Assembly (NCBI GenBank): GCA_003134555.1
Contig: PLBO01000122.1
Span: 1 to 37,406, forward strand
Direction: 5' to 3'
Length of the DNA stretch: 37,406 nucleotides
Source: Actinomycetota bacterium
GTDB lineage: Bacteria; Actinomycetota; Acidimicrobiia; IMCC26256; PALSA-610
The position numbers and the translations under genes are program-made. How positions within the stretch are numbered: position 1 is the stretch's first letter; every line of letters starts with the position of its first letter. Below, one piece after another: positions 18,762 through 20,959 of this stretch. Under the pieces are notes generated by a model, which was given only the letters and a program-made list of their open reading frames with translations, searched no databases and was not told the DNA's origin.

Positions 18762-19985
18762 TCAGTCGCAGCGCACGAGTCCGCGCGATACGAGATCGCC
18801 GTAGAGCCGGCGAAGTCGCCCTGCGGTCATGCTCCACGAATACCGCTTGGATCGCGCGGCCGCGCTCACACCCATCTCGCTCGCCCCTATCTCGTCGGCG
18901 AACAACCGTGCGACGGGCGCGGCGAAGTCGTCGGGATCGCGGCCCTCGACGAGGAACCCGGTGTTCTCGTGATCGACCAGAGAGCGCAGGCCGCCGACCG
19001 CGGCGGCGACCACCGGCGTACCGCACGCAGCGGCTTCCAGCGCGACCAACCCGAACGACTCCGAGCGAGACGGCACGATGCACACGTCGGCCGCCCGGTA
19101 GTAGTCGGCGAGACGATCGTGGCGCCGGGGGCTCACCCAGTGGATCTGGGCGGAGACGCCCAGCTCCTCGGCGAGCGCGTGCACCCGGGCTTGTTCGGTA
19201 CTGCCGTCGCGGCCGCTCGGCCCGCCGACGATGACGAGGGCGAGCTTCGGGTCGTCGAGCGCGGCGAGGGCGCGGATCGCGAGGTCGGCGCCCTTCAGCC
19301 GTTGGATCCGGCCGACGAACAGCAAAACGCGCGGCGCGACGATCCCGAGGCGTTGACGCGCGGCGCCGCGGTCACCGGGAACGAAGACGGTGTGGTCGAC
19401 TCCGGGCGGCACGACCTCGATCCGGTCGGGCGCGGCGTCGTACAGGGAGGCGAGCTGCGCCTGCTCGTCGTTCGTGGAAGCGAGCATCAAGTCGGCGCAC
19501 GCGACCACCTCGTGCTCGACGCGCGTCCGGTGCTCGGCGTCGTCGTCGACACCGGCTTCGGCCTTCACGCGCGCGAGCGTGTGGAACGTGGCGACCATCG
19601 GGACGTCGAGCTCGTGCTTCAGGCGGTGCGCGACCGCACCCGAGAGCCAGTAGTTCGCGTGGAGCACGTCGACGGGCTCGCGCTCGAGCATCCGTCGCAT
19701 CGACGCGTCGACGAACGGATCGACGAGCTCCGAGAGCGCGTGCTTCGGCACGGGGGTGCGCGGCCCCGCGTCGACGTGCAGGACCCGGAATCCCGGCTCG
19801 ACCTGCACGAGTACCGGTTGGCCGGCGTGATCGCGACGCGTGTACACGTCACATTCCACGCCGGCCCGGGCGAGGGCGGTCGCGAGCGCCCGGACGTACA
19901 CGTTCATGCCGCCGCCGTCGCCGGTGCCCGGCTGCGCGAGCGGCGACGTGTGCATCGAGAACATTGCGATCCGGCGGACGGACAT
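18762..19985 (-). CDS. mshA: D-inositol-3-phosphate glycosyltransferase (mycothiol synthesis)
   Basis: GT4-family enzyme that joins GlcNAc to inositol-3-phosphate, the first step of mycothiol. The N-terminus MHTSPLAQPGTGDGGGMNVY is diagnostic for MshA; ATFHTLARVKA, the phosphate-binding LFVGRIQRLKGADLAI, and the ESFGLVALEAAACGTPVVA segment with the nucleotide-sugar glutamates follow. Length 407 is slightly short of mycobacterial MshA. TACGAT lies seven nt before the ATG and no ribosome site is seen. Presence of mycothiol synthesis places the organism in Actinomycetota. Confidence 0.95.
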   Translation of the reverse strand: MSVRRIAMFSMHTSPLAQPGTGDGGGMNVYVRALATALARAGVECDVYTRRDHAGQPVLVQVEPGFRVLHVDAGPRTPVPKHALSELVDPFVDASMRRMLEREPVDVLHANYWLSGAVAHRLKHELDVPMVATFHTLARVKAEAGVDDDAEHRTRVEHEVVACADLMLASTNDEQAQLASLYDAAPDRIEVVPPGVDHTVFVPGDRGAARQRLGIVAPRVLLFVGRIQRLKGADLAIRALAALDDPKLALVIVGGPSGRDGSTEQARVHALAEELGVSAQIHWVSPRRHDRLADYYRAADVCIVPSRSESFGLVALEAAACGTPVVAAAVGGLRSLVDHENTGFLVEGRDPDDFAAPVARLFADEIGASEMGVSAAARSKRYSWSMTAGRLRRLYGDLVSRGLVRCD

Positions 19986-20051: not shown

Positions 20052-20444
20052 TCATCCGGCTTCGGCGTCGCGCGAGAGGTTCTCGGCCTGGAACGACCGG
20101 TAGATCTCGACCAGAGCCTGCTTCTGGCGGTCGTTGATCGTGGGATCGGCGACGATCGCCCCTACGGGATCCGTGCCCGCGCGGTTGCCGTCGGGCGAAG
20201 CGTCGAGGATGCCGGCCCGGACGTAGAGCGTCTCGGCGGAGATGCGCAAACCCCGGGCGATCGATTGCAGGATCTCGGCGGAAGGCTTGCGGAGCCCGCG
20301 CTCGATCTGGCTGAGATAGGGATTCGAGATGCCGGCGAGCTCGCTCAGCTTGCGCAGCGAGAGCCGGGCATTGCGGCGCTGATCCCGGATGAACCCGCCG
20401 AGGTCGTGCAGTCGCGCTTCGAGCGACTCGAACGACTCGGACAT
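20052..20444 (-). CDS. XRE-family helix-turn-helix regulator
   Basis: 130 residues with one XRE domain (about 17-72): LGGFIRDQRRNARLSLRKLS, then ELAGISNPYLSQIERGLRKP and LRISAETLYVRAGIL. This sequence type resembles Rv0474 of M. tuberculosis. The C-terminal part (NDRQKQALVEIYRSF) looks like a short helical tail. Its ATG overlaps the stop of the rsiG-like gene (ATGA), so the two are made together and may act in one circuit. Its targets are unknown. Confidence 0.88.
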   Translation of the reverse strand: MSESFESLEARLHDLGGFIRDQRRNARLSLRKLSELAGISNPYLSQIERGLRKPSAEILQSIARGLRISAETLYVRAGILDASPDGNRAGTDPVGAIVADPTINDRQKQALVEIYRSFQAENLSRDAEAG

Positions 20445-20959
20445 CAGCCTGCCGTCCCGGCAACCTGCCGCTCCGCGATCTCGCCTTCGACCGCGTCGAT
20501 CACTTCGTGCATCCGGTGCCGGAGCTCGGAGAGCTCACGTTCGAACGCGTGCAAGCGCTCGATCGTCGACTCCAGCTCGTCGTCGGGGAGCAGCGGGAGA
20601 TGCGCGAGCGTGGTGTCGGCAACCAGCTGCTCACGACCGTCGGGCCAGTGCAGCTCGACGCCCGGGGAGTCGGGCGGCGGCACGCGGGTGTCGGTGATCG
20701 ATGACCGGCCGGACTCCGCGCTCAGGATGCGCGGCAGGTCCTTGACCAGATCCTCGACGGTGCCCCCGAGGGCCCGGCGCTCGTGCTCGGCCTCCAGGAT
20801 CTCGATCCGAGCCTGCGCGAGCCGGCGCCGGTACGACAGTGCGTTCTCGACGTCGTTGCATTCCGCCTTCATGGCCCGCAACTCGTCGACCGGCCGCGCG
20901 TCGAGTGCGGCAACGAACGCGGGATCGATCAGTCGCTGGATCCGTTCCGTCGGAATCAC
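20444..20959 (-). CDS. rsiG: RsiG/AmfC-like protein, putative c-di-GMP-responsive anti-sigma factor
   Basis: 171 residues, two long helices joined by a linker. Each helix carries a match to the c-di-GMP-binding motif of Streptomyces RsiG, E-x3-S-x2-R-x3-Q-x3-D. Helix 1: Glu38, Ser42, Arg45, Gln49, Glu53 (last position Glu for Asp). Helix 2: Glu140, Ser144, Arg147, His151, Asp155 (His for Gln). In Streptomyces RsiG with bound c-di-GMP sequesters the sporulation factor sigma WhiG; older databases call it aerial mycelium formation protein AmfC. No sigma gene is visible in the window. The GTG start has AGAGG upstream and a TAGAGT hexamer at 20989-20994. Function by homology is inferred, but the doubled motif makes the family call fairly strong. 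Confidence 0.8.
   Translation of the reverse strand: MIPTERIQRLIDPAFVAALDARPVDELRAMKAECNDVENALSYRRRLAQARIEILEAEHERRALGGTVEDLVKDLPRILSAESGRSSITDTRVPPPDSPGVELHWPDGREQLVADTTLAHLPLLPDDELESTIERLHAFERELSELRHRMHEVIDAVEGEIAERQVAGTAG

Follow-up and report, generated by a model that had tools for sequence, protein, structure and literature searches.

RsiG holds the sigma factor WhiG inactive when c-di-GMP is high, and in Streptomyces this pair of proteins governs spores. The S. venezuelae RsiG (AmfC; structures 6pfj and 6pfv) is a monomer that carries two motifs, whereas that of Rubrobacter radiotolerans, solved as an (RsiG)2-(c-di-GMP)2-WhiG complex (7lq2-7lq4), has one motif and forms a homodimer. 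In the accessible part of a study of 2021, RsiG-WhiG is called the only known c-di-GMP-gated sigma/anti-sigma pair, three WhiG residues, K-G-R, are given as contacts to c-di-GMP, twin-motif RsiG is listed in three of four Acidimicrobiales species, and Rubrobacter, which does not sporulate, is described as having RsiG-WhiG, with WhiG probably controlling pili (PMC8325347). The same part of that study names neither targets nor a gene neighbourhood for the RsiG of Acidimicrobiales.

The window considered here is a stretch of 37,406 nucleotides, contig PLBO01000122.1 of an Actinomycetota bacterium of the class Acidimicrobiia (assembly GCA_003134555.1). The features that matter are the following:

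20444..20959, minus strand: rsiG, twin-motif c-di-GMP-type anti-sigma factor of 171 aa (Pfam, phmmer, AlphaFold2 model, Foldseek)
20801..20848, minus strand: motif 1, residues 38-53, ENALSYRRRLAQARIE, in model helix 24-63 (model and alignment)
20495..20542, minus strand: motif 2, residues 140-155, ERELSELRHRMHEVID, in model helix 126-170 (model and alignment)
20052..20444, minus strand: XRE-family regulator of 130 aa, overlapping rsiG by 1 nt (TGATG) (HTH_3, 1.3e-12)
18762..19985, minus strand: mshA-like glycosyltransferase of the mycothiol pathway, a conserved neighbour (TIGR03449, 2.4e-127; at 425 bits the match lies under the cut-off of 462.5)

We propose, with a probability of roughly 0.7, that in Acidimicrobiia RsiG, c-di-GMP and WhiG form a switch of type IV pili that feeds back on c-di-GMP, and that the flagellar sigma factor FliA is not its target. 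Homology, predicted fold, conservation of motifs, co-occurrence of the partners, contact residues and conserved promoter sites were computed; ligand binding by RsiG, sequestration of WhiG and promoter use are what we infer.

The gene at 20444..20959, which begins with GTG at 20959, is a genuine RsiG, the Acidimicrobiia orthologue of the family. Its product matches the Pfam family RsiG (PF22802) in two stretches at 4e-21, with 74.9 bits against a curated cut-off of 27, and its best relative among solved structures is S. venezuelae RsiG (6pfj, 1e-9 with phmmer), further ones being the single-motif chains 7lq2-7lq4. The preliminary description had seen an RsiG homologue at exactly these coordinates, and it had looked to structure prediction as a check. 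An AlphaFold2 model built from 46 sequences (mean pLDDT 85.3) consists of two long helices, 24-63 and 126-170, each bearing one motif; the top four Foldseek matches are RsiG chains (probability 1.00, E 9e-5), while VIA aligns the model with the RsiG structures at Z 12.2 and 11.7 (rmsd 3.1 and 2.7 over 141 and 132 residues) against Z 8.8 for the next-best fold. Matches below Z 9 (PspA, UvsY, SMC) were set aside as common coiled coils. The predicted fold is thus the antiparallel coiled coil of 6pfv/6pfj, and the earlier assignment is borne out. Where their folds align, the protein is about 31% identical to S. venezuelae RsiG, with which it also shares a pair of motifs borne by an antiparallel coiled coil and a WhiG partner that has K-G-R; it departs from it in how Gln and His, Asp and Glu are distributed over the motifs, in a gene that adjoins XRE and mshA, and in belonging to an organism that keeps flagella and FliA. 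This RsiG adds one more protein to a known family, whose presence in the class had already been reported: the twin-motif RsiG of Acidimicrobiales in PMC8325347 belong to the same class as the window. Of the 41 genomes of the order, 37 (including that of the window) gave a match to RsiG, as did 200 of 296 sampled across the phylum. Five and six RsiG matches in two of the genomes examined (G101 and G150) probably reflect several copies per genome; one genome with two RsiG is reported in the accessible part of the 2021 study (PMC8325347). Elsewhere (L149:1456-2238, G275) a single-motif RsiG helix shares a frame with a zinc ribbon and an apparent FHA domain, possibly an RsiG fusion.

A partner is encoded in the same genome. 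Two of its sigma factors exceed the FliA_WhiG cut-off, and the one at C113:87539-88324 is a WhiG orthologue (275.9 bits), whose best solved relative is S. venezuelae WhiG at 2e-94, the other being the FliA of a flagellar cluster; the WhiG-type sigma factor that had been named as the thing to seek in the genome was therefore found. The gene order there, with names assigned by reading the sequences, is whiG-M23 peptidase-rpsB-tsf-pyrH-frr, an order also known from Streptomyces. Across 296 actinobacterial genomes RsiG and WhiG-level matches occur together in 193 and are both missing from 81, with 22 discordant (7 and 15 having a single one), a co-occurrence whose P-value is inflated by the shared ancestry of the genomes. 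Two genomes of the same order (G018 and G020) keep the WhiG orthologue with no RsiG match, by loss or because contigs are missing. As to the ligand, the organism very probably makes c-di-GMP, since its genome encodes 33 GGDEF domains.

Because Rubrobacter suggested pili, we examined the pil cluster on contig C16, which comprises pilB, a second pilB-like ATPase gene (pilB2), pilC and a pilin gene. Three flagellar-type sites with a spacing of 16 lie on the coding strand, 36-60 nt before pilB, pilB2 and the pilin gene, and all fall in intergenic gaps. When the pil regions of relatives were fetched via pilB2, the own genome being included in the counts, such a site (at most 3 mismatches, spacing 16) was found before 16 of 17 pilB and 18 of 23 pilB2, altogether in 34 of the 40 regions taken from the order, against about 1.5% in dinucleotide-type shuffles and 1 of 22 before pilC, which lies inside the operon; the P-values of these counts are too small, related genomes not being independent. 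In the same 40 regions a spacing of 15 gave 16, and spacings of 12-14 and 17-20 gave between 1 and 9. A flagellar consensus with a spacing of 14-16 and an exact seven-base -10 element had no matches, and a first genome-wide scan at spacing 15 with two mismatches gave 42 against 36 in the control, hence no enrichment: the spacing that fits the lineage is 16, and the refined WhiG-type consensus reads TNNAG-N15-GCCGATA.

Which sigma factor would read these sites is suggested by a closed genome of the order (G028), which has WhiG, no FliA-level match, and sites at both pilB and pilB2; this speaks for WhiG as the sigma factor that uses them. Wherever FliA is present, it could use them as well, and in a fragmented genome (G040) neither RsiG nor WhiG is detectable, yet a site stands at pilB2. 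The MshEN domain of MshE binds c-di-GMP, and both type IV pilus ATPases (L238:2370-5712, G000:C16) have such a domain, at 81 and 51 bits; c-di-GMP may therefore act on the pili twice, in the ATPase protein and through transcription by WhiG.

The sites are also found at genes of c-di-GMP metabolism. Within 317 kb of the own genome, made up of stretches chosen for their GGDEF or pil genes, one of them by an earlier pattern match, and thus giving something other than a genome-wide count, there are eight sites, with none for the reversed pattern: three at pil genes, three at GGDEF genes, one before a recombinase gene and one inside a coding sequence. On C52 and C83 they lie 37-40 nt before the GGDEF genes, and the one on C21 lies close to the start, itself uncertain, of a GGDEF-EAL gene. 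A site 97 nt before whiG was rejected, as it reads in frame as FQELLGHADV, apparently a XerC-like coding motif. The recombinase site, a good one of WhiG type, precedes a tyrosine recombinase gene, apparently beside a tRNA (L319:5811, G000:C61); it was not used.

Could the switch govern swimming rather than pili, RsiG and c-di-GMP controlling FliA? The fliA gene lies some 22 kb from rsiG on the same contig, with a flagellar cluster (csrA, fliW, flgL, flgK, flgN, flhA, flhF) at 37.7-46.6 kb, and the two genes are 20-35 kb apart in several relatives. However, the own WhiG has K-G-R intact at all three c-di-GMP contacts, as do 26 of 27 WhiG relatives (the remaining one reads K-S-R), whereas the 13 FliA relatives that could be read and the own FliA all lack the triplet, 14 of 14 proteins reading Q/G-S/T/A/N-E, with Glu in place of the phosphate-contacting Arg. 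Since FliA is without these contact residues, RsiG should, on sequence grounds, target WhiG only. Moreover, RsiG is retained in genomes that have no FliA match, such as G028, and we hold control of FliA to be very unlikely. The flagellar cluster itself (L041, G000:C100:37000-56000) shows no flagellar-type site at 2 mismatches or fewer, so promoters of another kind may serve FliA in this lineage. A further possibility is that RsiG still acts on WhiG as an anti-sigma factor but no longer depends on c-di-GMP, its two substitutions impairing binding. The preliminary description had noted two motifs of exact spacing with one substitution each, and this holds: motif 1 is E38-x3-S42-x2-R45-x3-Q49-x3-E53 and motif 2 is E140-x3-S144-x2-R147-x3-H151-x3-D155, a pair of matches obtained in 5e-6 of trials with the shuffled protein. 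Set against E-x3-S-x2-R-x3-[QH]-x3-D, motif 2, with His for Gln, fits, and motif 1 fits save for Glu in place of the final Asp, a change that might weaken the recognition of guanine. When the window's protein is aligned with 29 relatives, all 30 retrieved by HMM, there is nevertheless no variation at E38, S42, R45, R147 and H151, S144 is kept in 29 (with one gap), E140 in 27 (with 2 D) and D155 in 25; position 49 is Q in 28 and H in 2, and position 53 is E in 17 and D in 11, hence acidic in 28 of 30. With H151 fixed and position 53 mostly E or D, both substitutions are, on this alignment, features of the lineage and not decay, and the fixed His of motif 2 argues for a stable variant rather than for a decaying site. 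In the accessible part of the 2021 study His is noted as a suitable substitute for Gln, although the exchange there concerns motif 1 and the invariant His of the present proteins lies in motif 2 (PMC8325347). Since E, S and R show little or no variation in either motif, we regard loss of dependence on c-di-GMP as highly improbable.

There remains the overlapping XRE gene, which the preliminary description had thought might belong to the same switch, RsiG and the XRE protein making one joint regulatory module. The row rsiG-XRE-mshA is indeed conserved in Acidimicrobiia, with XRE as the next gene after rsiG at 46 of 61 loci and further away at 5, but in the 10 loci where rsiG is kept and XRE is not seen, most have rsiG directly before mshA. 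Orthologues of the XRE protein (58-74% identity) persist in genomes devoid of RsiG, twice still adjoining mshA, and Streptomyces-like genomes carry them too, one of which has rsiG, XRE and mshA in this order over 32 kb with XRE about 25 kb from rsiG; of 30 RsiG loci beyond Acidimicrobiia, none showed an XRE signature in the adjoining 1.5 kb. Nor is the protein a BldD, as its 130 aa contain no match to R-x-D-x8-R-x-x-D, the signature of BldD, an XRE protein that binds c-di-GMP. A joint module is thus quite unlikely, and that suggestion is not supported: the row looks like an old neighbourhood later compacted, not a dedicated two-gene switch, and XRE is probably a neighbour outside the switch. 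Acidimicrobiia-like rsiG/mshA rows in three records titled Bifidobacterium breve or Acidobacteria (L101, L115, L117) probably stem from mislabelled metagenome bins.

The switch of RsiG, c-di-GMP and WhiG that we favour would work as follows. At high c-di-GMP the antiparallel coiled coil of RsiG would bind a c-di-GMP dimer through both motifs and would clamp WhiG, helped by the K-G-R of the latter, which is encoded elsewhere in the genome, before rpsB-tsf. A fall in c-di-GMP would free WhiG, which would then transcribe pilB, pilB2 and the pilin gene, together with several diguanylate cyclase/phosphodiesterase genes, from TNNAG-N15-GCCGATA; the products of the latter genes would feed back on c-di-GMP, while FliA would stay outside the switch. 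Where WhiG serves sporulation in S. venezuelae, the predicted output here is pili. There is a likeness to R. radiotolerans, which has the same partner and the same motif and whose predicted targets are likewise type IV pilus and diguanylate cyclase/phosphodiesterase genes, and the predicted sigma28-type promoters before pil and diguanylate cyclase/phosphodiesterase genes are those of a Rubrobacter-type WhiG regulon; the Rubrobacter protein has one motif and dimerizes, whereas the window's has two motifs in one chain. In Actinoplanes zoospores, as cited in the accessible part of PMC8325347, a WhiG-like sigma controls pili and flagella, and pilus genes are predicted to be read by WhiG here too, although Actinoplanes is given there as without RsiG and the present organism has one. 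A search of the literature, with most subscription journals missing from it, turned up neither the promoter footprint nor the contrast between FliA and WhiG nor what became of the XRE neighbour.

It appears to us rather probable, if somewhat less so than the switch itself, that in Acidimicrobiia a twin-motif RsiG gates WhiG-driven pil and GGDEF/EAL genes with FliA insulated by its want of K-G-R, and that pili are the older job, shared by the single- and the twin-motif forms, from which sporulation would be derived. The comparison of FliA with WhiG provides a three-residue criterion, K-G-R, for which sigma factor an RsiG can hold. Candidate WhiG-type promoters at the pil genes of an order from a further class, together with twin-motif RsiG, make it possible to test whether the control of pili is older than both the gene duplication and sporulation.
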